A DNA stretch of 54,633 nt, from contig NZ_JALKFX010000042.1 of NCBI RefSeq assembly GCF_023243045.1, positions 1-54,633 of the forward strand, given 5' to 3'. Position 1 is the first letter of the stretch, and each line of letters starts with the position of its first letter. This stretch comes from Frankia sp. AgB32. GTDB lineage: Bacteria > Actinomycetota > Actinomycetes > Frankiales > Frankiaceae. Below are positions 3,969-18,177 of this stretch, one piece after another. A program made the translations under genes and the position numbers. The notes under the pieces were generated by a model. The model did not search any database and had not been told where the DNA came from. It saw nothing but the letters and a program-made list of their open reading frames with translations.

Positions 3969-6900
3969 ATGCTCCAGAATTGGCCCATCCGCTCGAAGCT
4001 CGTGGTGATTCTCGTCGTCCCCCTGGCCGCCTTGGCGGTGCTGAGCGTGATACAGGTGCGGGGGAACGTCGACAACGTACGGGCCGCGAACCGAATCAAG
4101 TCGCTGGCCAGCTTCTCGATCAAAGCAAACGACCTGGTAGCGGCGTTGCAGACCGAGCGGTTCGCCACGAACTCCTACGTTGGCTCGAGCTATCTGGCGA
4201 CCCCCCAGGGGCAGCTGGCCGTCGACGCGCGCGTCCCGGTCGACCAGGCGCTGGCGACCTACCGCGCGGGTGAGTCGGGCCTGCCGTCGAGCGCCCGGGA
4301 CCCGCTGGCGACGACGCTGGCGGCGATCTCGACCCGGCTGGACAAGCTCCCCGCGCAACGGCGGGCGATCGACGCGCGCGAGGCGCGGGTCGATCAGAAC
4401 AACACCTATTACAACGATCTGGTCGACGACCTGCTGTCACTCAACGGCCGCGTCGCGCTCGGCAGCCACAGCGCGGCCCTGGTCAACGGGGCGGCCACGC
4501 TCGCCAGCATCTCGCAGGCCAAGGAAGAAGCCGCACAGCAGCGCGGCGCCGTCGCCCGCGTGATCATTCTTGGTCAGCAGGACCAGCTCACCCTGCACCA
4601 GATCGAGAGCTCGGCCGGTGCCGAGGACGCCTGGCTGACGCAGTTCCGCACCACCGCGACCGCGGACGAGCAGGCGTACTACAACGCCACCGTCGGCCGT
4701 ACACTGTCGGCCGCGACGGCTATTCGTGACACGACGGTGAACGCAGTGGTGTCCGGTCAACCCGTGACGACCACCCAGCAGGCCTGGCTCCAGGCCGTCG
4801 GGGTAAAGATCGACGCACTGCACGAGGTTGAACTCCGGATCGCCAACGATTTGGGTACGACCAGCTCGGACATCTCTAGTTCAGCTACCCGCAACGCACT
4901 GCTCGGCGGGATTGGTGTGACGTTGGTCCTATTCCTGTCGATCGCCATTTCGCTGCTCGTCGCGAGTCCGATGATCCGGCATCTGCGTACCCTGCGACAG
5001 GGCGCGCTCGAAGTCGCCACCGACCGGCTTCCCGGGGTTGTCGAGAGGCTTCACCGCGGCGAACAGGTCGAGATGACCGCGGAGATATTCCCCGTCGATG
5101 TAAAGAGCACGGACGAGATCGGCCAGCTCGCTGAGGCGTTCTCCACGGTGCATGCGGTGGCCGTGCGCACCGCGGTGGAACAGGCCGCCATGCGCAAGAG
5201 CATCGGTGACACCTTCCTCAACCTCGCCCGACGCAGCCAGGCGCTCATTCACCGCCAGTTGAAGATCATCGACGGCCTGGAGCGCAAGGAGACCGACCCC
5301 GACGAGCTCGAGGAACTGTTCCGGCTCGACCACCTCGCCACCCGCATGCGTCGCCACGCGGAGGACCTCATCGTCCTGTCGGGCTCCAAGCCCGCCCGAG
5401 GCTGGCGCCGCCCGGTCGAGATCAAGGATGTCGTGCGCGGCGCCGTCGCCGAGGTCGAGGACTACACGCGGGTCAAGGTCATGCCCATCGACGGCGGCGC
5501 CATCAGCGGCCACGCGGTCGGTGACGTCATCCACATGCTCGCCGAGCTCATCGAGAACGCCACCTCCTTCTCGCCGCCCCACACCCCGGTGCAGGTCAAC
5601 GGGCACGAGGTCTCCAACGGCTTCGTCATCGAGGTCGAGGACCGCGGCCTCGGCATGAGCGCGCAGGAGTTCCAGTCCATCAACGAGCGGCTGTCCGACC
5701 CGCCACCGTTCGACCTGTCGACCAGCGAGCGGCTCGGGCTGTTCGTCGTCGGCCGCCTTGCCGTCCGGCACGCGGTCTCGGTGAAACTACGCCCCTCGCC
5801 GTACGGCGGCACGATGGCCATCGTGCTGGTCCCGACCGGCCTGCTGCGCCAGTCCGACGAGGACGGCGACGGGCGCCCGACGAGTGGCGGCGCGACCGTC
5901 CGCTCGCTGCCCGCGCCGGCCGTGCCCGCGCTCGACGGCCCCCCCTTTGACGAGGACGGCCTGGCCGAGCGCGGGCCCAACGAACCGCGACCGGCCGCGC
6001 CCCGTCCCGGCGATCCCCGTCAGGACGAGTCCCGCTCCGGCCAGTCCCGCTCCGGCCAGCCCCACTCCGACGAGTCCCGGCCGAACGCGCTGCGCCCGAC
6101 CGAGCGCCGGCGCGCGGGCCGCGGGGAACGCCGACTGGATCTCGCTCCGCCGATGGACGCCGACGAGCACCCCGCGGACGGCGTGCGCCCGGCCTCCGTG
6201 CCACTCGCCGACGTGCCGCGCGCCGAGGAGCCGGTGCCAGCCGAGCAGATCCCCGTGGATCCGCTCGCCGATGGGCCCCTGACCGCGCCGCAGCCCACCT
6301 ACATGCCCGAGTCGATCACGGGCGCCGACGAGACCCTCCTCGACGACCTGCCGGTGTTCGCCACCGTCCGGTCGAACTGGTTCGTCGCCGACCGACCCTC
6401 GCACCCCGGCGCCGGCGGCCGGCGCTCCGACGGCCCGACCCGCGTCCCGGGCGAGGCCGCCGAGTCCGAGCGGGCGGTCGACGGTGAACCCGGTTCGGTC
6501 GACCGTGACCCGTCGACCGGCGGCGATCAGCGCCGCTCGCGGATGATCGGCCGCGACGCCGCCGCGCTCGGCGCGGGCGAGCTGGACCGGGGACCGCGAG
6601 GTGGGGATCTGCCGCAGCTGCCCAGCCGTCGGGCCCGCCCGGGCAACGGCTATCCAGCGGGTTTCGCCGACCCGGCAGCCGCCGACGACGGGCGCGCGCC
6701 GGTCGAACCGGCCGCGGTGCCGGCCGGGCCCGCGGTGCGACCCGGCCAGGGAGCGAACTTCCCGGATCCCGGCCGCTACGACCCGGCCGGTTATGGGTCC
6801 CCCGCCCGCGACGGTGCCCTGGGCGCCGGCCCGCCGGCCTCCAGGTTCGGCAACCCCGGACCGGGGGACCAGCCCGCCAGGTCGGCGCGCCCGGGTGAGG

Positions 6901-7307
6901 TGGGTCGCCACGACCCGCTGACCTCGCCGCTGAGCCGCACCACCGGCCCGCGCCAGCCCGACCCGCGTCGCGGTGGCCCCGCGGGACCCGGCGCCACCGG
7001 CCCGGGCGACGAGGTCGTCCCGTTGCACCGGCGGGCCGGCCGCGGGCGCGACGGCGGGGACGCGGCCGAGGACGGCCAGCGCGGTGAGGAGCAGACCGAC
7101 CTCGGTCTGCCGAAGCGGACCCGGCGGGCCAGCCTCGCCCCCCAGCTTCGCCGCGACGCCGCCAGCGAGCGCCCCGCCCCGCTCGCCGCGCACCGCAGCC
7201 CGGAAGAGATCCGCACGATGATGTCGTCCTTCCAGAGCAACTTCGGTCGCGGTCTGGCGGACGGCCAGGACTCCAACGACGGCGATGACGTAGGAAAGGT
7301 GACCTGA
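3969..7307 (+). CDS. cvnA: Conservon CvnA: nitrate/sulfate-sensor-type histidine kinase-like protein
   Basis: This 1112-residue membrane protein matches the sensor of Streptomyces-type conservons. A first transmembrane helix (about residues 11-30) follows MLQNWPIRSK. An extracytoplasmic NIT-like (nitrate/nitrite-sensing) helical domain spans about residues 35-305, and a second helix lies at about 310-335. A HAMP-like stretch leads to a HATPase_c domain at about 515-625. Its N-box is ELIENATSFSPP, its G1 box EDRGLGMS and its G2 box RLGLFVVGRLAVRH. The usual H-box is replaced by the conservon-type LFRLDHLATRMRRHAEDL, so classical autophosphorylation is uncertain. Residues 630-1112 are a long Pro/Arg/Asp-rich, probably disordered tail. 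The stop is one base from the next start, so cvnA and cvnB form an operon. Confidence 0.9.
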   Translation: MLQNWPIRSKLVVILVVPLAALAVLSVIQVRGNVDNVRAANRIKSLASFSIKANDLVAALQTERFATNSYVGSSYLATPQGQLAVDARVPVDQALATYRAGESGLPSSARDPLATTLAAISTRLDKLPAQRRAIDAREARVDQNNTYYNDLVDDLLSLNGRVALGSHSAALVNGAATLASISQAKEEAAQQRGAVARVIILGQQDQLTLHQIESSAGAEDAWLTQFRTTATADEQAYYNATVGRTLSAATAIRDTTVNAVVSGQPVTTTQQAWLQAVGVKIDALHEVELRIANDLGTTSSDISSSATRNALLGGIGVTLVLFLSIAISLLVASPMIRHLRTLRQGALEVATDRLPGVVERLHRGEQVEMTAEIFPVDVKSTDEIGQLAEAFSTVHAVAVRTAVEQAAMRKSIGDTFLNLARRSQALIHRQLKIIDGLERKETDPDELEELFRLDHLATRMRRHAEDLIVLSGSKPARGWRRPVEIKDVVRGAVAEVEDYTRVKVMPIDGGAISGHAVGDVIHMLAELIENATSFSPPHTPVQVNGHEVSNGFVIEVEDRGLGMSAQEFQSINERLSDPPPFDLSTSERLGLFVVGRLAVRHAVSVKLRPSPYGGTMAIVLVPTGLLRQSDEDGDGRPTSGGATVRSLPAPAVPALDGPPFDEDGLAERGPNEPRPAAPRPGDPRQDESRSGQSRSGQPHSDESRPNALRPTERRRAGRGERRLDLAPPMDADEHPADGVRPASVPLADVPRAEEPVPAEQIPVDPLADGPLTAPQPTYMPESITGADETLLDDLPVFATVRSNWFVADRPSHPGAGGRRSDGPTRVPGEAAESERAVDGEPGSVDRDPSTGGDQRRSRMIGRDAAALGAGELDRGPRGGDLPQLPSRRARPGNGYPAGFADPAAADDGRAPVEPAAVPAGPAVRPGQGANFPDPGRYDPAGYGSPARDGALGAGPPASRFGNPGPGDQPARSARPGEVGRHDPLTSPLSRTTGPRQPDPRRGGPAGPGATGPGDEVVPLHRRAGRGRDGGDAAEDGQRGEEQTDLGLPKRTRRASLAPQLRRDAASERPAPLAAHRSPEEIRTMMSSFQSNFGRGLADGQDSNDGDDVGKVT
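6010..6080 (+). repeat. Short tandem repeats in the cvnA tail
   Basis: A 15-base unit based on cagtcccgctccggc is repeated two to four times with drift. It encodes a Q/E-S-R-S-G/D repeat inside the disordered C-terminal tail of CvnA. Such in-frame repeats usually vary in number between strains. Confidence 0.6.
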
Positions 7308-7308
7308 G

Positions 7309-7728
7309 ATGCGCCCGCTGGGACCGTCCGAGAACATGAGCTGGTTGCTCAACAACCTCGTCAAGAAGGTGCCGGAAGTCACCTACGTGATCGCTCTGTC
7401 CTCGGACGGCCTGCTTCTCGCGACGTCGTACGGGATGGACCGGACCACGGCCGATCAGCTCGCGGCGGTCGCCTCCGGCTTCAACTCGCTCGCCCGCGGA
7501 GCCGGCCGGTTCTTCGGCGGTGGCAGCGTCCGGCAGACGATCGTCGAGATGGACGAGGGCTTCCTGTTCGTCACGGCCGTCGGCGACGGTTCCTGCCTGG
7601 CGATCCTGTCCAGCCCCGGCGCGGACATCGGCCTCATCGCCTACGAGATGGCCCTGCTGGTGACGAGGGTCGGCGAGTTCCTCACCCCGGAACTGCGCGC
7701 GCAGATGCAGTCCGCGCTCCCGCTGTAG
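7309..7728 (+). CDS. cvnB: Conservon CvnB: Roadblock/LC7 domain protein
   Basis: This 139-residue protein is a Roadblock/LC7 protein, the second conserved member of conservons. Family members regulate small GTPases or form dimers on membranes. The domain covers most of the protein: VIALSSDGLLLATSYG, then ADQLAAVASGFNSLARG, QTIVEMDEGFLFVTAVGDGS, and IGLIAYEMALLV near the end. The ATG at 7309 has a GGAAAGG ribosome-binding site and sits one base after the cvnA stop, so translation is probably coupled. In conservons it is thought to work with CvnC and CvnD at the membrane beneath CvnA. Confidence 0.92.
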   Translation: MRPLGPSENMSWLLNNLVKKVPEVTYVIALSSDGLLLATSYGMDRTTADQLAAVASGFNSLARGAGRFFGGGSVRQTIVEMDEGFLFVTAVGDGSCLAILSSPGADIGLIAYEMALLVTRVGEFLTPELRAQMQSALPL

Positions 7729-7839
7729 CGACCCGACCCATGACGGCCGGCGGGGGTGCGGCGGCGGGTTTGGCCCGCCGGTCGACCTCCTGCCCGCGCC
7801 GACCGGACCGCAGAGAACTCTCCAGGCAGGAGGACCGGC

Positions 7840-8211
7840 ATGTCGTACGACGAGGAATGGTTCGACGAAGAGGCGGGTCCGGTCGTCCGTCCCTACGCCG
7901 TGACCGGGGGCCGGACCCGGCCGACCAACCGGGCGCTGGATCTGGTTGCCCTCGTGATGACCACACCCAACGGGCGGCTGATGACCGCCACGTTGGAGGC
8001 GGAGCAGCGCGCGATCGCGCTGCTGTGCCATCGGGTGCAGTCAATTGTGGAGATCTCCGCCCGACTGGACCTCCCGCTCGGGGTCGTGCGCGTCCTCGTC
8101 GGCGACATGCTCGATGCCGGCCTGGTCACCGTGACCCGTCCGGCCCGATCCTCGGACCGCCCCTCCGCGGCCCTCATCGAAAGGGTGCTCGATGGACTAC
8201 AGGCCCTCTAG
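7840..8211 (+). CDS. cvnC: Conservon CvnC: DUF742 protein
   Basis: This 123-residue protein belongs to DUF742, the third conserved member of conservons. The family signature is visible as VVRPYAVTGGRTRP near the N-terminus. A winged-helix-like core follows (VQSIVEISARLDLPLGVVRV, then LVGDMLDAGLV), and the protein ends VLDGLQAL. I chose the ATG at 7840 because it follows a strong GGCAGGAGGA site; the open frame upstream of it is Arg-rich and unrelated to the family. Its last 20 bases overlap the GTPase gene, which supports co-translation. DUF742 proteins have no known enzymatic activity. Confidence 0.92.
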   Translation: MSYDEEWFDEEAGPVVRPYAVTGGRTRPTNRALDLVALVMTTPNGRLMTATLEAEQRAIALLCHRVQSIVEISARLDLPLGVVRVLVGDMLDAGLVTVTRPARSSDRPSAALIERVLDGLQAL

Positions 8212-8821
8212 AACGCGCCCGCCGGAGGCGGCGACGTCCCTGCACCCGGTAAAGATCATTATCGCCGGCGGGTTCGGGGTCGGGAAGACGACGTTCGTCG
8301 GGGCGGTCAGCGAGATCCCACCGCTGACCACAGAGGCCGCGATGACCTCGGCGAGCATCGGGATCGACGACACCAGCTCGGTCACCTCGAAGACCACGAC
8401 CACCGTCGCCATGGACTTCGGTCGGATCACCCTCGTCGACAGCGTGATCCTCTACCTGTTCGGCACGCCCGGTCAGGACCGGTTCTGGTTCATGTGGGAC
8501 GAGCTGGTCCTCGGCGCGATCGGCGCGGTGGTGCTCGTCGACACCCGTCGGCTGGCGGACTCGTTCCCAGCCATCGACTACTTCGAGGAGCGGGACATCC
8601 CGTTCCTCGTCGCTCTGAACCGGTTCGACGGTTCCCGGGAGTACCGCGGCGAGGACGTCCGGGCGGCGCTCGACCTCGACCCCCGCCGGCCGTTGGTGTT
8701 CTGTGACGCCCGCCAGCGCGAGTCGGTCCGCCAGGCGCTGGTCGCCCTGGTTCGCCACGCCCTCGACGTGGTTTCGGCGGAGCAGTCGGGCCGGCCGGCG
8801 CTGCCCCAACGGTCCGGGTGA
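8192..8821 (+). CDS. cvnD: Conservon CvnD: small Ras/Rab-like GTPase
   Basis: This 209-residue protein is the conservon GTP-binding protein (MglA-like/ATP-GTP-binding family). The P-loop is GGFGVGKTT at about residues 26-34. A Switch I-like threonine-rich segment follows, the G3 motif is LFGTPGQDRFWFMW, and the base-specificity region is ALNRFDG, with N and D in place of a full NKxD. These motifs predict GTP binding. Catalysis probably depends on partners, because the G3 Gln is followed by DR as in other conservon GTPases. The ATG at 8192 follows AAAGGG and overlaps cvnC by 20 bases. With CvnB and CvnC it likely forms a membrane-associated G-protein module below the CvnA sensor. Confidence 0.92.
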   Translation: MDYRPSRTRPPEAATSLHPVKIIIAGGFGVGKTTFVGAVSEIPPLTTEAAMTSASIGIDDTSSVTSKTTTTVAMDFGRITLVDSVILYLFGTPGQDRFWFMWDELVLGAIGAVVLVDTRRLADSFPAIDYFEERDIPFLVALNRFDGSREYRGEDVRAALDLDPRRPLVFCDARQRESVRQALVALVRHALDVVSAEQSGRPALPQRSG

Positions 8822-8937
8822 GCGCCGTCGCCGACGGCCGGGGGGCAACCGGTAACACCACACACCTCGCGGTGGGGACGAGCTGGGCGACCGGTCCTCG
8901 TCGAGAGACTCACGAACCAGCTCCGGGGAAGGGCACG

Positions 8938-9966
8938 GTGCTTGATCTTCTCGGCCTCGACGGCGTCGCGTTGTCCGCCTACCGGCTCTGGTTGCGTCAC
9001 GGTTCGCTGGGTGTGGCCGATGTCGCGGAGCTTCTCGGAGAGCCGGCGCGCGACGTCGGTCAGGCCCGTGATCGTCTGCTTGAACTGGGGCTGCTGCTCG
9101 CCTCGCGGGAACGGCCCGGTCACTTCGTCGCGGTGCACCCCGAGGCCGGTCTGGACCATCTGCTCCAAGCCCAGCACGAACAACTCATCCGGCGCCATGA
9201 GCGGCTGGTGCGCGCACGCGCGCAGGTCAGCGTCTTCGTGTCCGACTACCTGGAGAGCCGACCGGATCCGGACGGCGTCGAGGTGCAGCGCATCGACAGC
9301 GTCGACCACGCGCGGGCGGAGCTGCTGGCGATCGTCGGACGGGCCGAACGTGAGGTCCTGACCCTGCGTATCCGACGTCGAGCGGCATCGACGCTGTCCA
9401 ACGATGTCATGCCGGTGGAGCTGCGCGCGCTGCGGCGAGGTGTGGTGATGCGTAGCGTACTGCCGCGCGCCACCCGCCAGGACGAGAACGGCGTCGGCTA
9501 CCTGCGCACCGTCGCCGCGCACGGGATGGACGCCCGTCTGCTGGATGACCCGCGGCTCGAGGCGACCACGGTCGACGGCCGGATCGCCCTCATCGGCCCC
9601 GCCCTCGGGGCCGCTCCCGGCCGTGGTGGCGGTCGCGGCGTTGGCGGCGGTCATGCCCTCCTCGTGCGCACGCCCGAACTCGCCTCCGTTCTGCGAACCC
9701 TGTTCGAGCAGGTCTGGGAGATCGCCGAGCCGATCAGCGGCGAACTGGCCGACGCGTCCGCGCCCGAGGCCGCGGACAATCCGTCCGACTCCGAACGACT
9801 GCTGCTGCGACTGCTCAGCCTCGGAGTCAAGGACGAGGCGGCCGCCCGTCACCTCGGCGTGTCCGTGCGCACCGTCCGGCGAATGATCGCGGACCTGATG
9901 ACGCGCCTCGACGCGCGCAGCCGATTCCAGGCCGGCACCCTGGCGACCCGCCGCGGCTGGCTCTGA
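8938..9966 (+). CDS. TrmB/LuxR-type helix-turn-helix transcriptional regulator
   Basis: This 342-residue protein has two DNA-binding regions. An N-terminal TrmB-like winged helix covers about residues 5-65 (LSAYRLWLRHGSLGVADVAE, then LLEPARDV-like helices). A LuxR-type helix-turn-helix lies at the C-terminus (DEAAARHLGVSVRTVRRMIA). Between them is a domain resembling the phospholipase-D-like middle part of TrmB-type sensors (HARAELLAIVGRAEREVL). I prefer the GTG at 8938, preceded by GGGGAAGGG at a good distance. The GTG at 8818 overlaps the cvnD stop and would add 40 poorly conserved-looking residues. It is the last gene of the conservon operon and could be its transcriptional output. Confidence 0.8.
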   Translation: MLDLLGLDGVALSAYRLWLRHGSLGVADVAELLGEPARDVGQARDRLLELGLLLASRERPGHFVAVHPEAGLDHLLQAQHEQLIRRHERLVRARAQVSVFVSDYLESRPDPDGVEVQRIDSVDHARAELLAIVGRAEREVLTLRIRRRAASTLSNDVMPVELRALRRGVVMRSVLPRATRQDENGVGYLRTVAAHGMDARLLDDPRLEATTVDGRIALIGPALGAAPGRGGGRGVGGGHALLVRTPELASVLRTLFEQVWEIAEPISGELADASAPEAADNPSDSERLLLRLLSLGVKDEAAARHLGVSVRTVRRMIADLMTRLDARSRFQAGTLATRRGWL

Positions 9967-10484
9967 CCCCGCTGGCGCCGGCCGCTGGTTGATCGCGTCC
10001 GGGCGTGCACACGCACGCCCGGACCGGGCTGAACTCAACCGGTCGCGTTTTTGCTGGGTTGTGTTCTGCATGCGTACCAGTTGGCACCTGATTGCCGGGG
10101 CAGTTTGTTGCCAGACAGTTTCCGGGACGCCGGCAGCTTCTGGCCGCATGCTCTCGATGAGCCCAGCAGAGACCACCTCGAACGGGTGGTCGCGAAGGCA
10201 CGTCCGGCAGTCGCGTGACCGGCGTGCCCGCGAGCCTGTTCCGACCAGCCGACCCTGTGCAGCGTGTGATCTCCGGCAACGACGCCGACGCACGCATGTC
10301 CGCCATGCAGACCGTCAGACCGTCAGACCGCCACGCCGTCGTGCCTTATGCCGCCGCACCGCCAGATCCCGCGCTGCGCAGACCCCGCAGTGCCGCCCAA
10401 GCCGCCGCGCCCTCGTTTCGTCGCCGCAGCCGAAACGAGCCCGTGTCCGACGGCCCTGGCCCAGCACCCTACTAGGAGCATGTA
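9967..10484. other. Intergenic region ahead of the polyketide cluster
   Basis: Apart from the hairpin at 9997-10024, this 518-base stretch holds no gene I can support. At 10312-10330 the 8-base unit ccgtcaga is repeated in tandem two and a half times. The promoter of the polyketide cluster must lie here, but I could not identify -35/-10 elements with confidence. Confidence 0.4.
9997..10024 (+). terminator. Perfect 12-bp stem-loop ending the conservon operon
   Basis: GTCCGGGCGTGC and GCACGCCCGGAC are exact reverse complements around an ACAC loop. The structure begins 31 bases after the regulator stop. It has no U-tract but is strong enough to act as an actinobacterial terminator, separating the conservon from the polyketide cluster. 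Confidence 0.7.
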
Positions 10485-10862
10485 GTGCCCGCAGCCGCCG
10501 GATCGCAAACCTCGGCCGCCACCACTCCCGGAAAACGCACACATCGCACTCTGATCGTGGCAAGAATGAATCCCGCCGACGCCGATGCGGTCGCGGAGAC
10601 CTTCGCGGAGTCGGACGCGGGCGAGCTGCCCGTGATCGTCGGTGTCACCCGACGTGAGCTTTTCACTTTTCATGGATTGTACTTCCACCTCATCGACGCC
10701 TCGGCGGACGTCGCGCCGGCGGTCGCGAACGTGCGCGAGCATCCGCTTTTCGTCGACGTGAACCGCAAGCTGGACCAGTACATCACCGCCTACGACCCGG
10801 CGACCTGGCGCGGCCCGGCCGACGCGATGGCCCGGAGCTTCTACCACTGGTCGGCCGACTGA
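10485..10862 (+). CDS. TcmI-family type II polyketide cyclase
   Basis: This 125-residue protein is a TcmI/WhiE-ORFVII-type polyketide cyclase, a small dimeric ferredoxin-like-fold protein that guides late ring closure of aromatic polyketides. Typical features are HRTLIVARMNPADADAVAE at the start of the fold, ESDAGELPVIVGVTRRELF, FHGLYFHLID, and the ending PATWRGPADAMARSFYHW. The GTG at 10485 has an AGGAG site six bases upstream. The roughly 20-residue Ala/Thr-rich start is longer than usual. It is the first gene of a same-strand polyketide cluster running to 16636. Confidence 0.88.
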   Translation: MPAAAGSQTSAATTPGKRTHRTLIVARMNPADADAVAETFAESDAGELPVIVGVTRRELFTFHGLYFHLIDASADVAPAVANVREHPLFVDVNRKLDQYITAYDPATWRGPADAMARSFYHWSAD

Positions 10863-11094
10863 CCGCTCCACCGCGGGACCGGTGGGGCCCGCGCGCGCCC
10901 ACCGCCTTGCGTGGCGGCGCCCCGTCCACCCGATCTCCCGCGAGCCGCATATAGAGGTCGCTGGTGGTTTCGCGCCGCGTCTCGTCGCGATCCGCCGATT
11001 CTCGCCGGCCCGGTCCGTCGCCCCACCCGGCGCCCCCCGTTCCGTGAGAAGTCATGCCCGAGCAGCCCCAGGACGATCCAGCAAGGAGCTTTTC

Positions 11095-11352
11095 ATGCCC
11101 CAGGAATGGACCGCCGACGCACTCCTCGACTTCCTCGTCGACCAGGTCGGACTCCCGCAGGAGGACCGCCCGAGCACCCTCATGGTGAGCCTGACCGACA
11201 TTGGTCTCGACTCGTTGGCATACCTGCACCTGTCCGCCGAGGTGGCCGACGTGTTCGGCGTCGACCTGCCCGCCGAGATGATTCCGGGGCAGTCGCTCGC
11301 CGAGATCCTCGACACCGTCAACGCGGCCCTCGGGGAGCGCGAGCCGGTCTGA
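11095..11352 (+). CDS. Acyl carrier protein of type II PKS
   Basis: This 85-residue acyl carrier protein carries the growing poly-beta-ketone chain on a phosphopantetheine arm. The attachment serine is Ser40 in DIGLDSLAYL. The rest is a four-helix carrier fold, with VFGVDLPAEMIPGQSLAEIL covering the helix 2-3 region. The ATG at 11095 has an AAGGAG site upstream; the open frame continues further upstream but is not carrier-like. It sits between the cyclase and aromatase genes, with 232 bases separating it from the cyclase gene. Confidence 0.92.
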   Translation: MPQEWTADALLDFLVDQVGLPQEDRPSTLMVSLTDIGLDSLAYLHLSAEVADVFGVDLPAEMIPGQSLAEILDTVNAALGEREPV

Positions 11353-11462
11353 TCCGAACATCCACCCCGTCGATCTTCTGTCCTGCACCTACCACGCCGT
11401 GACACCTGTGTATCCGTACCCGACGTCCGTCCCGGATTCCCTTTCCTAACCGCGGAGTAGCT

Positions 11463-11969
11463 GTGAGTGGGCACACCGACAACTCAATCCTCATCAACGC
11501 CGACATCGACACCGTCTGGACCATGACCAACGACCTGGAGTCGTGGCCGGACCTGTTCACGGAGTACGCGTCCATCGAGATCATCGAGGTGACCGGAAAC
11601 ACCTTCAGGTTCCGGCTGACCATGCGCCCGGACGAGAACGGCACCGTGTGGAGCTGGGTGTCGGAACGCACACTCGACCCGGTCGGCCGACAGGTGCGCG
11701 CCCACCGCATCGAAACCGGCCCGTTCGAGTACATGCACATTCACTGGACCTACGCCCCGGAGGGCATCGGTACCCGGATGCGCTGGGTGCAGGACTTCCA
11801 TCTGCGGCCCACCGCGCCCCGCAACGACGAGCAGATGACCGATCGCCTCAACACGAACACCGCGCGGGAGATGGCGGTGATCCGGGACAAGGTCGAACGG
11901 GCCGCCGCGGCCGGCTCGACCACACTGCTCGCTGACACATCGGCCGCCCCCGTGCCGGAACAGGTCTGA
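11463..11969 (+). CDS. Aromatase/cyclase, SRPBCC fold (WhiE ORFVI/TcmN N-terminal-like)
   Basis: This 168-residue protein is a single-domain SRPBCC (START-like) aromatase/cyclase that folds and aromatises the first rings of the polyketide. It opens with the family hallmark, an alternating strand followed by [20 protein letters not shown]. It continues with [29 protein letters not shown], and the C-terminal helix with [14 protein letters not shown]. It is the mono-domain form, as in spore-pigment clusters; clusters with a reduced starter often use a di-domain form. The GTG start at 11463 follows GCGGAG. It lies 110 bases after the ACP gene and 14 bases before the cupin gene. Confidence 0.88.
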
Positions 11970-11983
11970 GGAGGACGGCCCCG

Positions 11984-12457
11984 ATGGCATCCCCAGCGAT
12001 CGCGCCCCCGAAGGTCCTCTGCATCCACGATGTCGCCCCCAACCGGCGCCGCGGCGGCGACATCCGCACGCTGCTGTCACCGGCGACGGTCGGCTCGACG
12101 TCCGGATTCCTCGGCACTCTCACCCTGGAACCAGGCGAGTTCGTGACCGAGCACTGGCATCCCTACTCGGAGGAGTTCCTCTACTGCGTGCGCGGCGCCG
12201 TGACCGCACGCCTCGACGGCCAGGACCACGCTCTGCCCGCGGAGCACGGCGTCTGCGTGCCGATCGGGATGCGTCACCGCATCACCAACGACGGCGACCA
12301 GACGGCGTTCCTGGTGTTCCACCTCAGCCCGCTGGCGCCCCGTCCCGACCTCGGCCACGTCGACACCGAAGCGGTGCTCAACCCGGACGCGGCGCACACG
12401 CCGATCATCCGCTCCGGCCCGTGGGCCGAGGCGCTCCCGCCCGGATCCCGGCGGTGA
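11984..12457 (+). CDS. Cupin-domain protein of the polyketide cluster (WhiE ORFII-like)
   Basis: This 157-residue single cupin protein resembles the cupin found next to KS genes in spore-pigment clusters. Cupin motif 1 is [18 protein letters not shown], with two His and a Glu as likely metal ligands. Motif 2 includes [12 protein letters not shown], with the last His ligand. The protein probably binds a divalent metal, but its reaction in pigment clusters is not established. It ends within the KS-alpha start (GTGA overlap), indicating coupled translation. Confidence 0.85.
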
Positions 12458-13746
12458 GGCCGCCGCGCGAGGTGGCGGTCACCGGCATCGGGGTGGTCGC
12501 CCCGGGCGGGACCAACCGCAAGGAGTTCTGGACGCTGCTCACCGACGGCCGCACCGCGACGCGGCGGCTGTCGTTCTTCGACCCCGCGCAGTTCCGCTCC
12601 CAGGTCGCCGCCGAATGCGACTTCGACCCGGCGGCGGCAGGCCTGAGCGCCCAGCAGGTCGCCCGCAACGACCGGTTCGTGCAGCTGGCCCTGGCCGCGG
12701 CCCTGGAGGCGGTGGACGACAGCGGCCTCGACCTGCGGCCCGCCGGCACCGGCGGGCTCGGTGACGACGACGCCGGCCCGGTCGTGGGCGTGAGCATGGG
12801 CAGCGCCGTCGGCGCGACGACCCGGCTGGAGAACGAGTACGTCGTCGTGTCCGACTCCGGCCGGCACTGGGAGGTCGACCCGCGCTACGCCAGCTCGTTC
12901 CTCTACCACGCGCTCGTGCCGAGCTGCCTGGCCACCGAGATCGCCGACCGGTTCGGCACCCACGGGCCGGCGGCGGTGGTCTCCACCGGCTGCACGTCCG
13001 GCATCGACGCCGTGGGACACGGCGCGCAGCTCATCGCCGACGGCGAGGCCGACATCGTGATCGCCGGCGCCTCCGACGCGCCGATCTCCCCGATCTCCGT
13101 CGCCTGCTTCGACGCGATCCGGGCGACGACGCAGCACAACGACGATCCCGAACACGCCTCCCGCCCCTTCGACGCCAGCCGGGACGGCTTCGTGATGGGC
13201 GAGGGCGCCGCGGTCCTCATCCTGGAGGACGCGGCCGCGGCCCGTGCCCGCGGCGCGCATGTCTACTGCCACGTCGCCGGATACGCGTCCCGGTCCAACG
13301 CGTTCCACATGACCGGCCTGCGGCCCGACGGCGCCGAGATGGCCGAGGCGATCCGGATCGCGATGTCGGCCGCGCGGGTCAACCCCGACGACATCGACTA
13401 CGTCAACGCACACGGCTCGGGTACCAAGCAGAACGACCGGCACGAGACGGCCGCCTTCAAGCGGGCCCTGGGTCCGCGGGCCTACGGCGTGCCGGTCAGC
13501 TCGATCAAATCGATGATCGGCCACTCCCTCGGCGCCATCGGCTCGCTGGAGATCGCCGCCTGCGCCCTGACCATCGAGACCGACGTCGTCCCGCCGACGG
13601 CCAACTGGACGACGAGGGACCCGGTCTGCGATCTGGACTACGTGCCGAACGTGGCCCGTGACCACGCCGTCGACGTCGCCCTGTCGGTGGGCAGTGGCTT
13701 CGGCGGGTTCCAGTCCGCCGTCGTCCTCACCGGGCCGAACCGGTGA
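12454..13746 (+). CDS. Type II PKS ketosynthase alpha (KS-alpha)
   Basis: This 430-residue beta-ketoacyl synthase builds the polyketide chain by decarboxylative Claisen condensation of malonyl-ACP. The active-site Cys180 lies in [12 protein letters not shown]. The catalytic His320 is in [12 protein letters not shown], and Lys352/His357 are in [13 protein letters not shown]. All four catalytic residues are intact. The GTG at 12454 overlaps the cupin stop by four bases (GTGA). The product ends four bases inside the KS-beta gene, so the pair is translationally coupled, as in essentially all type II PKS clusters. Confidence 0.96.
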
Positions 13747-15074
13747 GCGCGACCGCCGGAGCCGCTGTCGCGCACGCCGGGGAACGTCCCGCACCCGCAC
13801 CCGCACCCGCACCGGCGCCGGCGCCGCGCGAGCCGGGGTCGCCAACGTCCCGGCCGGTGGTGACCGGCCTCGGGGTGGTCGCGCCCAGCGGCATCGGGGT
13901 CGAGGAGTACTGGGCCTCGACGCTGCGCGGCGAGTTGCGCGTCGCCCCCATCACCCGGTTCGACCCGGCCCGCTACGACGCAACCCTCGCCGGTGAGGTC
14001 GTCGGATTCACGCCGGAGGAGCACGTCGACAAGCGGTACCTCGTGCAGACCGACCGCTGGACCTGGTTCGGGATGGCCGCGTCCAGGCTCGCCTTCGCCG
14101 ATGCCGGCTACGACCCGGCCGCCCACGATCCGTACGCGACGGCGGTCGTGTTCGGCAGCGGCTCGGGCGGCAACGACTTCGGGCAGCGGGAACTGCAACG
14201 CCTGTGGACACGGGGACGTACCGCCGTGAGCGTCTACCAGTCGATCGCCTGGTTCTACGCGGCGACCACCGGCCAGACGTCCATCCGGCACGGCCTCAAG
14301 GGGCCGTCCGGTGTCCTGGTCAGTGATGGTGCCGGCGGGCTCGACAGCCTCGCCCAGGCCAGGCGGGCGGTCCGCCGCGGCACCTCCGCCGTCCTCGCCG
14401 GCGCCGCCGAGGCGGGGCTCACGCCGTACGCGCTGACCTGCCATCTCTCCAGCGGGAGGGTGAGCACCGCGGCGTCGCCCGCCGACGGCTACAAGCCGTT
14501 CGACGCGCGGGCGAACGGCTACCTGCCCGGGGAGGGCGGCGCGAGTCTGCTCGTCGAGGACCCGGCGTCGGCGGCCGCGCGGGGAGCGTCCCGGATCTAC
14601 GGGGAGATCGCGGGCTACGCCGCCACGCATGACGGCGGCGACGACCGCGGGCCCGTGGCGGGCGGCCGCTGGCTGGCGACGGCCATGCGGCGGGCGCTGG
14701 CCGATGCCGACCTGCGACCTGACGACATCGATGTCGTCTTCGCCGACGGTGCCGGTTCCGTCGACCTCGACGCGCGGGAGGCGGCGGCGATCCGCGCGGT
14801 GTTCGGCGACCGGCCGGTGCCCGTGACAGCGCCCCAGGGCCTGATCGGCCGGCTGTGCGCCGGCGGCTCGGCGCTCGCCGCGGCCACGGCGCTGCTGTCG
14901 ATCCGGGACGGTGTGATCCCCGCCGTGGGGAACCTGGACACCCCGCACCCCGATCACGGTCTCGACCTGGTGCGGGAGCCTCGCCAGACCCGGGTGCGGA
15001 CCGTGCTGGTCAACGCCCGAGGCTACGGCGGGTTCAACAGCAGCCTCGTGCTGCGTGCCGTCGAGCAGGGCTGA
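13743..15074 (+). CDS. Type II PKS chain-length factor (KS-beta)
   Basis: This 443-residue ketosynthase homologue partners KS-alpha as the chain-length factor, which sets polyketide size. The active-site Cys is absent. The corresponding position, Gly196, lies in [17 protein letters not shown]; most chain-length factors have Gln there, which makes this one unusual. An N-terminal extension of about 35 residues contains an Ala-Pro repeat before the fold starts at [13 protein letters not shown]. The gene overlaps KS-alpha by four bases (GTGA) and is followed by 133 bases before the reductase gene. Confidence 0.94.
13788..13826 (+). repeat. Hexameric repeat encoding an Ala-Pro linker in KS-beta
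   Basis: The unit cccgca (drifting to ccggcg) is repeated about six times and encodes alternating Pro-Ala near residues 16-28 of KS-beta. It is a low-complexity in-frame repeat prone to length change. Confidence 0.8.
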
Positions 15075-15207
15075 CCTCACGCGCCGAGGTTGCCCTCCGG
15101 GCCCGGCCCTGCCCTGCCCTGACGCCGCACGTGCCGGCCCGATTCCGATCCCGATCCTTCGACGTCCGAAACCCGATTGTTCTTTTGACTCAGGAGACGA
15201 GACAGCG

Positions 15208-15945
15208 ATGTTCCCAGACCTGGCCGGGCGACGAGCCCTGGTAACCGGCGGTACCCGTGGCATCGGCCGAGCCGTCACGCTCGGTCTCGCCCGAGCCGGC
15301 GCCACGGTCGTCGTCGGTCACCAGCGGGAGAGCGAGGAGGCCGAGAGCCTGCGCCGCGAGCTGAAGGCCACCGGCAAGGACCACCTGCTCGTGCAGGCCG
15401 ATGTGGCCGATCCGGCGCAGATCGGGGAGTTGATCGAGGCCACCGGCACCCACCTCGGCGGCCTCGACATCGTCATCAACAGTGTCGGCACCATCAGTCA
15501 CATCCCGTACGCCCAGCTGCCGATCGAGGCCTGGACGCAGGTGCTGGCCACCAACCTCACCGCCACCCACCTGGTCACCCAGGGCGCCCTGCCGCTGCTC
15601 GGCGACTCGGGCTCGGTGGTCAACATCGGCTCCGGCGCCGGGCTCGTCGGCGTGCCGCTGCGCGCCCACTACACCGCTGCGAAGACCGGCCTGATCGGGC
15701 TGACCCGGTCCCTGTCGAAGGAACTCGGCGCCAAGGGCATCCGGGTCAACCTGGTCTCCCCAGGCGTCATCGAGACCGATCAGGCCGCCGGCATGCCCGA
15801 GGCGGCCCGGGCCGCGTACACCAACCGCATCCCGCTGGGCCGGCTCGGCGAGGCCGACGAGGTCGCCGCGGTCGTGCTGTTCCTGGCCAGTGACGTCTCG
15901 TCCTATGTGAACGGCGCCACCTTCACCGTCGACGGAGGAATCTGA
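15208..15945 (+). CDS. Short-chain dehydrogenase, 3-oxoacyl-ACP reductase type (cluster ketoreductase)
   Basis: This 245-residue classical SDR of the FabG type probably uses NADPH to reduce a keto group of the polyketide or its starter. The cofactor loop is TGGTRGIG at about residues 13-20. The structural motif reads NSVG instead of the usual NNAG. The catalytic Ser is in NIGSGAG, the catalytic Tyr/Lys in HYTAAKTG, and the protein ends in FTVDGGI. The ATG at 15208 follows AGGAG. It overlaps the next gene by one base (TGATG). Unreduced spore-pigment pathways lack a ketoreductase, so its presence suggests a different product. Confidence 0.88.
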   Translation: MFPDLAGRRALVTGGTRGIGRAVTLGLARAGATVVVGHQRESEEAESLRRELKATGKDHLLVQADVADPAQIGELIEATGTHLGGLDIVINSVGTISHIPYAQLPIEAWTQVLATNLTATHLVTQGALPLLGDSGSVVNIGSGAGLVGVPLRAHYTAAKTGLIGLTRSLSKELGAKGIRVNLVSPGVIETDQAAGMPEAARAAYTNRIPLGRLGEADEVAAVVLFLASDVSSYVNGATFTVDGGI

Positions 15946-16289
15946 TGACCGCGACCCCGCCCTTCCGGATCATGCTGACGATGCGGATCCACCCGGGCCG
16001 CGAGGCCGAGTTCGAGCGCACCTGGCTGAACATCGGCGACGTGGTCACGTCCCATCCCGCCAACCTCGGCCAGTGGCTGGTCCGCTCCGAGGAGGAGTCG
16101 AGCACTTACTACATCGTCAGTGACTGGGTCGACGAGGCCAAGTTCCGCGAGTTCGAACGCAGCGACCGGCATCTGAAGCACCGGCAGGCCCTGCACCCGT
16201 TGCGGGCCAGCGGTTCCATGGTCACGGGCAGCGTGCTGACGCATCTGTGTGGCGCCGCCGCCACCGCGCCGGTCGCGGCGGTCGGCTAG
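15945..16289 (+). CDS. ABM-fold small monooxygenase-like protein
   Basis: This 114-residue protein fits the antibiotic biosynthesis monooxygenase (ABM) fold, a dimeric ferredoxin-like fold. In aromatic polyketide pathways such proteins act as cofactor-free anthrone oxygenases or cyclase helpers. Visible features are the first strand FRIMLTMRIHPGREAEFERT, then LGQWLVRSEEESSTYYIVSD and the Trp/Phe-rich WVDEAKFREFERS. The ATG is coupled to the ketoreductase stop (TGATG). Whether it is an oxygenase or a cyclase cannot be decided from sequence alone. Confidence 0.78.
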   Translation: MTATPPFRIMLTMRIHPGREAEFERTWLNIGDVVTSHPANLGQWLVRSEEESSTYYIVSDWVDEAKFREFERSDRHLKHRQALHPLRASGSMVTGSVLTHLCGAAATAPVAAVG

Positions 16290-16291
16290 CC

Positions 16292-16636
16292 GTGGTCGCC
16301 GAGCCGACGGTCCGGGTGATGATCTGGGCGATCGATCCGCCGGACGACCCGGGCGCCGTGGAGCGGGCCTACCACGAGATCAGCTCGAAGCTGGTCGGCA
16401 CCGAAGGCCTGCTCGGCAACACACTGCAGCGATCGGCGGCCGATCCGCGCCACCACGTGGTGGTCAGTGCCTGGGCCGGCATGAGCCAGTTCACCGCCTG
16501 GGAACAGGGCACGAGCCACCGCGGCACCACCTCACCGCTGCGGCCGCTGCAGGACCCCGACCGCCGTCCGATGATCTACATCGAGGCGGCCGCGTACGGT
16601 CCGACCGGCGCGTTCGACCAGCCACCCACCGGCTGA
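16292..16636 (+). CDS. Second ABM-fold small protein of the polyketide cluster
   Basis: This 114-residue protein begins at a GTG two bases after the preceding stop. It again shows an ABM-like pattern: VRVMIWAIDPPDDPGAVER, then GTEGLLGNTLQRSAADPRHH, VVVSAWAGMSQFTAWEQG, and a Pro-rich end. The LGN-LQ-S and SAW-F-WE spacing is typical of heme-degrading/monooxygenase-like dimers. Two consecutive ABM genes suggest two oxidation or cyclisation steps, or a heterodimer. It is the last gene of the cluster. Confidence 0.72.
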   Translation: MVAEPTVRVMIWAIDPPDDPGAVERAYHEISSKLVGTEGLLGNTLQRSAADPRHHVVVSAWAGMSQFTAWEQGTSHRGTTSPLRPLQDPDRRPMIYIEAAAYGPTGAFDQPPTG

Positions 16637-16648
16637 CCAACGCGCGTG

Positions 16649-16665
16649 CCGCCGTCGCCCGGCGG
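16649..16665 (+). terminator. Short stem-loop after the polyketide cluster
   Basis: CCGCCG and CGGCGG form a 6-bp GC stem around TCGCC, 12 bases after the last stop of the cluster. It is short and without a T-run, so it is only a candidate terminator. Confidence 0.35.
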
Positions 16666-16759
16666 AAGAGGCGCTCGGACCGGTCCCATCCGCAGGCCGG
16701 GGTCGGTCCGAGCCGTCGGGACGCACCGTGCTGCCGCCCGGCCGGCGGGAGTCGGGAGG

Positions 16760-17762
16760 TCACCCTTGTACGTCACGATGCGTGTCGGCGGGCGCCAGAT
16801 CGAGTCGAAGCCCCTTGAAGATGGGATGGCGCAGCCGTCCCTCGGTCGTCCGGGAGCCGAACTCGACGTCGGCGATCATCTGTGGCTCCACCCAGACCGC
16901 CGTACGGCCGACCTCGGCGGGAACGTCGCGGAAGGGCGGGTCGGCCCGGCGCAGGAGAGCCAGGGCGGTGGCCAGCCGATCCAGCATCGCCTCGGTGAGA
17001 CCGGAGCCGACCTGGCCCGCATAGCGCGGACCGCTGGGCGCTGCGGTGCCGACGAGCAGCGCGCCGATCTGGTCCGCTCGGCGACCAAGACCGACTCCCA
17101 ACCGCCGATGAGGACGCTCTGACGTCGGGTGTGCCGAATCTTCACCCAGTCGGCTGAGCGACGTCCGGCTGATACAGGGAGCCACGTCGTTTCGCGACGA
17201 CGCCCTCCAGCCCCGCCTGGCCGGTGGCGGCCAGCACCTCGCGGCCCGTTCCTTCCAGCTCCTCGGACAGGTGCAGCCGGCCGGGCCCGGCGAGCGCCGC
17301 CAGCAGCGCGCGCCGTTCGGCATAGGGCAACCCCATGGTGGAATGCCCTTCGAGAAAGAGCAGGTCGAACACGAGGTAGCGGACCGGGATCGCGGCAGCG
17401 CCCCGGCGGGCGAGCGCCGGGCTGGCGACGTGCACGCGATGACTCAGCCGTTCGAAGTCAGGACTGCCCGTCGGGCCGAAGGCGACGACCTCTCCGTCGA
17501 GAATCACCTGTGCCCTGTCCAGCGCCGGGCCGAGGGCGCCAAGCTCGGGGAGGACCGCGGACACGGGCAGCCCGCTGCGTGTGCGCAGGCGGGCCCGCCC
17601 TCCGTCGACGAAGGCCAGCAGACGGACACCATCCCACTTGACCTCGTAGGCCCAGTCCGGCCCATCCGGTGCGGTCAGCGCCGGCGTGGCGAGCATCGGC
17701 TCGATCCGGGCGGGCATCGGCTCCGCGTCGGGAGCCCCGGACGACGCGACGCGACGCACCAT
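16760..17762 (-). pseudogene. ATP-dependent DNA ligase (LigC/LigD-type), broken by two frameshifts
   Basis: The reading starts at an ATG at 17762 (GGAG just upstream) and encodes an ATP-dependent DNA ligase adenylation domain. The nucleotidyl-lysine motif is YEVKWDGVR, followed by LDGEVVAF, YLVFDLLFLEGHSTMG and GLEGVVAKRRGSLY. Near 17160 the frame fails. The sequence continues in the second frame as SADWVKIRHTRRQSVLIGGW. Near 17091 it shifts again into the third frame as GLGRRADQIGALLVG and on to EVEFGSRT and LRHPIFKGLRLD. Each shift equals one missing base. All segments of a roughly 330-residue ligase are present in order. Either this is a recent pseudogene or there are two sequencing errors in GC-rich DNA. 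Confidence 0.85.
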
Positions 17763-18177
17763 CACGCTCCGATCCTCCGGCCTCGGGTGGGGCAGGCCGC
17801 TGTACCCCGGCCGTCGGCCACTGCGGCGGCACCAGCGCGAGCCCGGCCCGCGTCGTCGCTGCGTGGCCGTGGGGGAGTTGACCTGCAACGGTTTTCGCGA
17901 ACGTCGCAGGCGCGTTCACCCTGCGGTGTACCCGCTGACCGGCGTCGGGCGCCTTCGTCCGGCGGTCCTGCCGTGGTGGTTCCGCTCCGCGAGGTCGGTT
18001 GCCCCGCGGCAGATGCGCTCGACGTGACCGGCCGTGCGGTTCACGGCGCCATGAGGCGCCACTGCGTGGCAATTCGGCGCCCTGGTGTAGAAATGCGCCG
18101 TCCGTCTGGAGGCGCTGGCAGGCGGCGGTCAGCGGTGCTGACGACCGTTCCGGACGGCGCGCTTTCGGGAGATGTGG

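Follow-up and report, generated by a model that had tools for sequence, protein, structure and literature searches.

A type II polyketide synthase cluster of Frankia sp. AgB32 that very probably represents the frankiamicin operon

Introduction

Frankia is a nitrogen-fixing plant-root bacterium. In Frankia sp. AgB32, nine genes at positions 10485-16636 of a contig of 54,633 nucleotides (NZ_JALKFX010000042.1 of assembly GCF_023243045.1; the whole stretch is called the window, and the contig C211) encode a type II polyketide synthase (PKS) with cyclases, a ketoreductase (KR) of the SDR family and two ABM proteins, and the locus raises the question of which aromatic compound these genes serve. A preliminary description had read them as an unusual mixture, in which the components of a WhiE-type spore-pigment cluster are joined by the KR and the ABM pair, lack a large flavin hydroxylase and stand in a different order. 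The mixture turns out to be a published and widely kept gene set with a structurally characterized product: together with the regulatory genes upstream, the region is, with little room for doubt, the frankiamicin (fkm) operon of a Frankia strain. The cluster was described in 2015, so that it is already known and represents no new type. Judging from its genes, the strain very probably produces a frankiamicin-type aromatic compound with five rings and a red-orange colour.

Gene content of the locus

The nine genes lie co-directionally on the + strand, and Pfam names all nine proteins as the preliminary description did, with best E-values per protein of 1.4e-5 to 2.8e-64, so that the set is not due to chance. 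In order, they are:

10485-10862, + strand: TcmI-type cyclase, fkmC3-like (PF04673, 6.1e-43; TcmI structure 1tuw, 9.6e-28)
11095-11352, + strand: acyl carrier protein (ACP), fkmC (PF00550, 1.3e-6; GLDSL motif)
11463-11969, + strand: mono-domain aromatase of the TcmN/WhiE-VI type, fkmC1-like (PF03364, 4.5e-14; 2kf2, 195.8 bits; best for TcmN, 173.8 bits)
11984-12457, + strand: cupin cyclase, fkmC2-like (PF07883, 2.6e-14)
12421-13746, + strand: ketosynthase (KS) subunit KS-alpha, fkmA (PF00109/PF02801; actinorhodin KS-alpha 1tqy_A, 1.9e-162; alternative start GTG at 12454)
13743-15074, + strand: KS-beta or chain length factor (CLF), fkmB (actinorhodin CLF 1tqy_B, 5.4e-112; Gly at actinorhodin position 161)
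15208-15945, + strand: SDR ketoreductase, fkmD-like, C-6 reduction expected (PF13561, 2.8e-64; 80-97% identical in 16 fully syntenic loci)
15945-16289, + strand: first ABM protein, fkmO1/PdmH-like (PF03992, 9.7e-12)
16247-16636, + strand: second ABM protein, fkmO2/PdmI-like (PF03992, 1.4e-5; start uncertain, from an in-frame GTG at 16247 to an ATG at 16319)

KS-alpha keeps the active site TGCTSG, and its alignment to 1tqy_A contains the Cys, His, Lys and His residues that we take to be catalytic, while KS-beta is devoid of the active-site cysteine, as in CLFs. The KR most likely starts at the ATG at 15208 and not at the start of the open reading frame (ORF) at 15055, because an AGGAG precedes this ATG by 11 bases and the relatives align over the full 245 residues. 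Both ABM genes are single-domain according to Pfam, and the best match of the first ABM protein in the PDB is 9lmn, WhiE protein 1 (E 4.8e-6). In NCBIfam, the TcmI-type cyclase, the ACP, the aromatase and the ABM proteins are without a family, and the KS pair and the cupin stay below the cut-off of every model; the KR passes one FabG subfamily model, among the matches listed.

The unit is larger than these nine genes, since five regulatory genes precede them on the + strand at 3969-9966, encoding a histidine kinase, a Roadblock protein, a DUF742 protein, a GTPase and a LuxR-type regulator, which brings the total to 14 co-directional genes.

Agreement with the frankiamicin cluster

A conserved 14-gene cluster of Frankia was tied in Frankia sp. 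EAN1pec to frankiamicin A, a C24 pentangular polyketide (PMC4383371). The compound and its labelling by acetate were shown in this strain, and the tie to the cluster rests on the structure, the acetate labelling and the presence of a single type II PKS cluster (PMC4383371). As far as Table 2 and the legend of Fig. 5 of that study go, all 14 genes of AgB32, regulators included, agree with the EAN1pec cluster in type, order and strand. The KS residues agree as well: the six in KS-beta that were called unique to the Frankia set (N109, D110, R118, V129, T192 and A195) are all present, as are A110 and S204 of the Frankia signature in KS-alpha (PMC4383371), although in our alignment actinorhodin KS-alpha also has an alanine at 110. 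Like the acetate-primed fkm cluster, the 14 genes include no type III KS and no adenylation gene. Furthermore, all features of the pentangular class are found, namely cyclases of the TcmN, TcmJ/cupin and TcmI types, a tailoring KR and two adjacent ABM genes, the KR and the adjacent ABM pair having been named as marks of this class (PMC4383371). The pradimicin (pdm) and benastatin (ben) clusters, compared by the published table, share the three cyclases, the KR and the two adjacent ABM genes (PMC4383371, Table 2), but in contrast to them the 14 genes of AgB32 include none for tailoring with sugars, amino acids or methyl groups.

The only difference seen from the EAN1pec cluster is sequence divergence, the measure of which comes from Parafrankia EUN1f, shown in Fig. 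5 of PMC4383371 and 62-92% identical gene by gene. An identical KS pair in an identical order, in a cluster with a known product, had been named beforehand as what would speak against a novel mixture; the order is indeed the same, whereas the KS sequences are orthologous and not identical (80% for KS-alpha and 81% for KS-beta, to EUN1f).

Several points weigh against the assignment to frankiamicin. No product was seen in ACN14a or EuI1c under the conditions of the published work (PMC4383371), and the product in AgB32 is predicted from the genes. The identity of the cluster is set by the gene table and figure legend for EAN1pec, while the measured identity is to EUN1f. The end product could stop at the compound G-2A because no cytochrome P450 gene is found on the contig (29 matches in the genome, none on C211, at E 0.001). 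Finally, the AgB32 genome has a second type II PKS, on contig C201, so that a red pigment alone would not prove the present cluster active; EAN1pec, by contrast, is said to have one (PMC4383371).

This second PKS (G000:C201:40650-48183, L128) has a TcmI-type cyclase, a KS-alpha and a KS-beta at 53-54% identity to the window's, with Thr at position 161, together with two SDR ketoreductase and two FAD monooxygenase matches, and looks angucycline-like.

Comparison with spore-pigment clusters

If the locus were instead a WhiE-type spore-pigment cluster with a rearranged gene order, it would make a wall-bound spore pigment. Taken singly, the components do resemble WhiE, as the preliminary description held: the window shares with whiE the aromatase, the cupin, the TcmI-type cyclase and the minimal PKS, and the aromatase scores higher against 2kf2, which we take to be SCO5315 of the whiE locus, than against TcmN. 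That Frankia sporulates also counts for such a reading, and on reciprocal best hits Frankia was listed among the genera with a “whiE-like pathway” (PMC4255298).

The KS-beta phylogeny points elsewhere. The tree was built from 108 rows, thinned from 131 among the Micromonospora and Geodermatophilaceae rows, with SH-aLRT values as its only support, and all rows came from searches with the window's KS-beta, so that the sample leans to its kin. The window falls in a clade of 22 rows, all from Frankiaceae (SH-aLRT 99), nested in a clade of 56 rows (support 100) that contains no whiE-type row. Grouping the fkm and whiE-type KS-betas together was rejected by the approximately unbiased (AU) test on 55 rows (14 of the 22 fkm rows and seven whiE-type rows against 34 others), with a log-likelihood 63.6 worse and a p-AU of 0.00018. 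Two KS-beta positions also set the window apart from the whiE type, with N and not G at 109, and A and not S at 195.

The gene order differs as well. In seven Streptomyces loci, chosen as whiE-type by gene order and not by name, the cupin is followed by KS-alpha, KS-beta, the aromatase and the TcmI-type cyclase, with the ACP presumably between KS-beta and the aromatase, and the order of the window departs from all seven. Within the stretches compared, neither a KR match nor an ABM pair is seen in these loci, a weak match to the second ABM protein in L180 (27% over 58 residues) aside. Neither the large flavin hydroxylase of whiE, which we take to be ORF VIII, nor its ABM-SchA/CurD fusion protein (ORF I) is found in the window, and the reported lack of such a hydroxylase holds for the whole contig, none of the 38 FAD_binding_3 matches in the genome lying on C211 (E 0.001). 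The ABM proteins had likewise been held up as a contrast to spore pigment; the two single-domain genes are there, but spore-pigment clusters are not free of ABM, WhiE protein 1 carrying such a domain at its N terminus (PMC6689052). Frankiamicin, moreover, was isolated from culture supernatant (PMC4383371), and a wall-bound spore pigment appears very improbable. The expectation that the product differs from classical spore pigment is thus borne out by the placement of KS-beta, the gene order and the KR with its ABM pair.

The sister group of the fkm KS-betas comes from Geodermatophilus, Modestobacter, Kutzneria, Asanoa, Actinomadura and some Streptomyces. Most of its loci share the order cyclase, ACP, aromatase, cupin, KS-alpha, KS-beta, and Gln161 is replaced in them too, but they differ from the window in having no match to the conservon and LuxR-type genes within the stretches compared and no KR above 32%. 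The same cyclase-to-KS-beta order, again with no conservon match or fkm-type KR, was observed in L060-L089 (Geodermatophilaceae, Kutzneria and some Amycolatopsis, Actinomadura and Streptomyces).

Distribution and synteny in Frankiaceae

The KS-beta was searched in 58 genomes, 35 of them from the own family, AgB32 included. A match of at least 71% identity was found in 31 of the 35, that of G029 being split into two pieces of 74 and 69%, and no such match was found in the remaining four (G002, G009, G015 and G018). Among the named carriers are Frankia torreyi, F. canadensis, Parafrankia EUN1f, F. nepalensis, Pseudofrankia and Protofrankia. Synteny was tabulated twice, the first table omitting loci below 5 kb (L001-L047) and the second taking all loci from L128 on, some of them of 3-5 kb. 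All 14 genes recur in the same order and on the same strand in 16 other loci from Frankia and close relatives, EUN1f included (L048, L050-L055, L057, L074 and L129-L135), with the kinase gene cut or partly matched at the end of the stretch in seven of them (L050, L054, L055, L057, L074, L129 and L131). Two further loci (L049 and L056) stop at contig edges and agree as far as their sequence goes.

On the Protofrankia branch the 3' end with the KR and ABM genes is exchanged or lost. No KR match follows KS-beta in P. coriariae (L078, the same place as L189), L187 and L188. The P. coriariae locus (L078, 7216-16450) carries, besides an additional ABM gene placed after the ACP, a fusion of ABM and SnoaL, a gene resembling glycosyltransferases and a flavin monooxygenase; in Frankia sp. 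CIT1 (L058, 3024-7293) a KR of 48% identity stands with ABM genes, an amidohydrolase and an O-methyltransferase, and a metagenome-assembled genome (L059) has a KR of 49%. The words “Datisca” and “Dg1” do not occur in the main text of PMC4383371.

Position 161 of KS-beta

Gln161 is credited with the decarboxylation of malonyl-ACP to the acetyl starter. At this position (actinorhodin numbering, fixed by F109, T112 and F116) the actinorhodin CLF has Gln and the KS-beta of the window Gly. In the alignment of 131 rows, none of the 22 fkm rows has Gln (14 G, four A, three T, among them EUN1f, and one D), nor has any of the seven whiE-type rows (E), the 21 Micromonospora and Plantactinospora rows (S, T or A) or the 17 Geodermatophilaceae rows (G or S), while 41 of the 64 remaining rows do. 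Gln161 is kept in all five of the loci whose KR and ABM pair are fkm-like (L093, L096, L097, L105 and L127), and these lie outside the fkm clade. Neither “Q161” nor “glutamine” occurs in the main text of PMC4383371, the residue alignment in Fig. 4 of which may show the position, and a literature search gave no naming of Gln161 or Q161 among the matches listed.

The Gly at 161 in place of the Gln of the actinorhodin CLF could be taken to mean that AgB32 makes a pentangular compound clearly different from frankiamicin, with another chain length or starter, and the exchangeable KR-ABM end in Protofrankia indicates that products may vary within the lineage. However, the replacement of Gln in every fkm row means that the change is not special to this strain, and the full end of KR, ABM and ABM is kept in AgB32 at the level of its Frankia relatives (79-93% for the first ABM protein and 86-97% for the KR, in the eight same-genus loci L048, L050, L051, L054, L074 and L131-L133). 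A clearly different pentangular product would accordingly be a great surprise, and a compound of the frankiamicin type is the expected one.

Regulatory genes and a conserved intergenic element

The first four of the five regulatory genes form a conservon, and between the fifth and the first cyclase gene lies a conserved non-coding block:

3969-7307, + strand: sensor histidine kinase with NIT and HATPase_c domains, conservon member 1, fkmR1-like (PF08376, 7.1e-42; PF02518, 1.7e-9; aligned pieces 33-84% identical in Frankiaceae fkm loci)
7309-7728, + strand: Roadblock/LC7 protein, conservon member 2, fkmR2-like (PF03259, 1.8e-25; 83-100% in Frankiaceae fkm loci)
7756-8211, + strand: DUF742 protein, conservon member 3, fkmR3-like (PF05331, 6.8e-34)
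8192-8821, + strand: small GTPase, conservon member 4, fkmR4-like (PF03029, 3.5e-32; 76-97% in Frankiaceae fkm loci)
8818-9966, + strand: regulator with a C-terminal LuxR-type helix-turn-helix, fkmR5-like (PF00196, 2.1e-4, just short of the curated cut-off; PF13384, 2.2e-5; 40-92% in relatives)
10045-10165, + strand: conserved non-coding block, probable promoter or operator of the biosynthetic genes (from an alignment of 14 gaps of 227-921 bp)
10082-10113, + strand: 32-bp core of this block, TGGCA-N12-GGCA-NNTT-NN-TGCCA (from a pattern search of genomes)

Across 14 loci the spacing between the LuxR-type gene and the cyclase gene ranges from 227 to 921 bp, and one block is alike throughout. The core pattern was searched in 34 genomes, 15 of which belong to the Frankia (13) and Parafrankia (two) groups, and it was derived from some of the same loci, so that its presence there is by construction, whereas its single occurrence per genome is not. 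Exactly one match was found in each of 12 of the 15, always on the strand of the cluster and 3.5-4.0 kb ahead of KS-beta, and a reversed control pattern found nothing in any of the 34. The three genomes left of the 15 are G002 and G009, which lack a KS-beta ortholog, and G008 (L051), whose aligned core is mismatched at one position. Of the 16 fully syntenic loci, 13 contain the exact pattern between the regulator and cyclase genes; it is absent from this gap in L051 and in the Pseudofrankia-type L055 and L057. Outside the 15, G020 has two matches, one in the gap on the opposite strand and one on another contig, G014 has one on a contig other than that of the KS genes, and G017 has one far from the cluster. 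A single 14-gene operon has been argued for (PMC4383371), in the main text of which the words “promoter” and “binding site” do not occur; to judge by the conserved element, the biosynthetic genes may be transcribed from a promoter of their own.

Proposed biosynthesis and control

From the gene set we infer the strain's production, the assignment of enzymes to steps and the regulatory route as follows. The minimal PKS would make the chain, in which the TcmN-type aromatase would close the first two rings, A and B. Rings C to E would be closed, and the quinone made, by the cupin and TcmI-type cyclases together with both ABM proteins. The KR would reduce C-6, which gives the pentangular compound G-2A. 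Frankiamicin A needs a C-5 hydroxyl in addition, which may come from a P450 encoded elsewhere in the genome, as no likely gene for it was found in the cluster (PMC4383371); in AgB32, a C-5 hydroxylase sought among the P450 and FAD_binding_3 matches of the genome was likewise not found on C211. Rings C-E require PdmH, the homologue of the first ABM protein, and an ABM protein may also serve as a fidelity helper, like ForS in the formicamycin pathway (PMC6689052; PMC4383371). The conservon and the LuxR-type regulator would control the cluster, probably via the conserved element that lies between the gene of this regulator and the first cyclase gene.

It is conceivable, though we put this forward only tentatively, that KS-betas of the fkm clade have dispensed with Gln161. 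As the one known product of the set is an acetate-derived chain, priming would in that case have to be done otherwise, e.g., by KS-alpha. On the same tentative reading, the pathway would be switched on by the G-protein-like conservon, acting via the LuxR-type protein on one site in the genome that is specific to the cluster.

Neighbouring sequence

Downstream of the cluster, the next ORF searched on the + strand (16646-17122) gave no Pfam family. At 17142-17888, on the - strand, an ATP-dependent DNA ligase domain is found on a short ORF of 248 amino acids, possibly a gene that is broken or frameshifted.

Significance

What could plausibly pass for a “new mixture” is the frankiamicin gene set already in print, and 31 of the 35 family genomes searched keep its KS-beta. 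The observation is real and correct but already described, and its interest is low apart from three side points that were not found in the main text of PMC4383371, namely the exchange of the KR-ABM end in Protofrankia, KS-beta residue 161 and the 32-bp element. That Gln161 has been lost in a family whose known product derives from acetate provides a natural test of starter formation by type II PKSs, and the single conserved site offers a concrete target for how a conservon controls a secondary metabolite.

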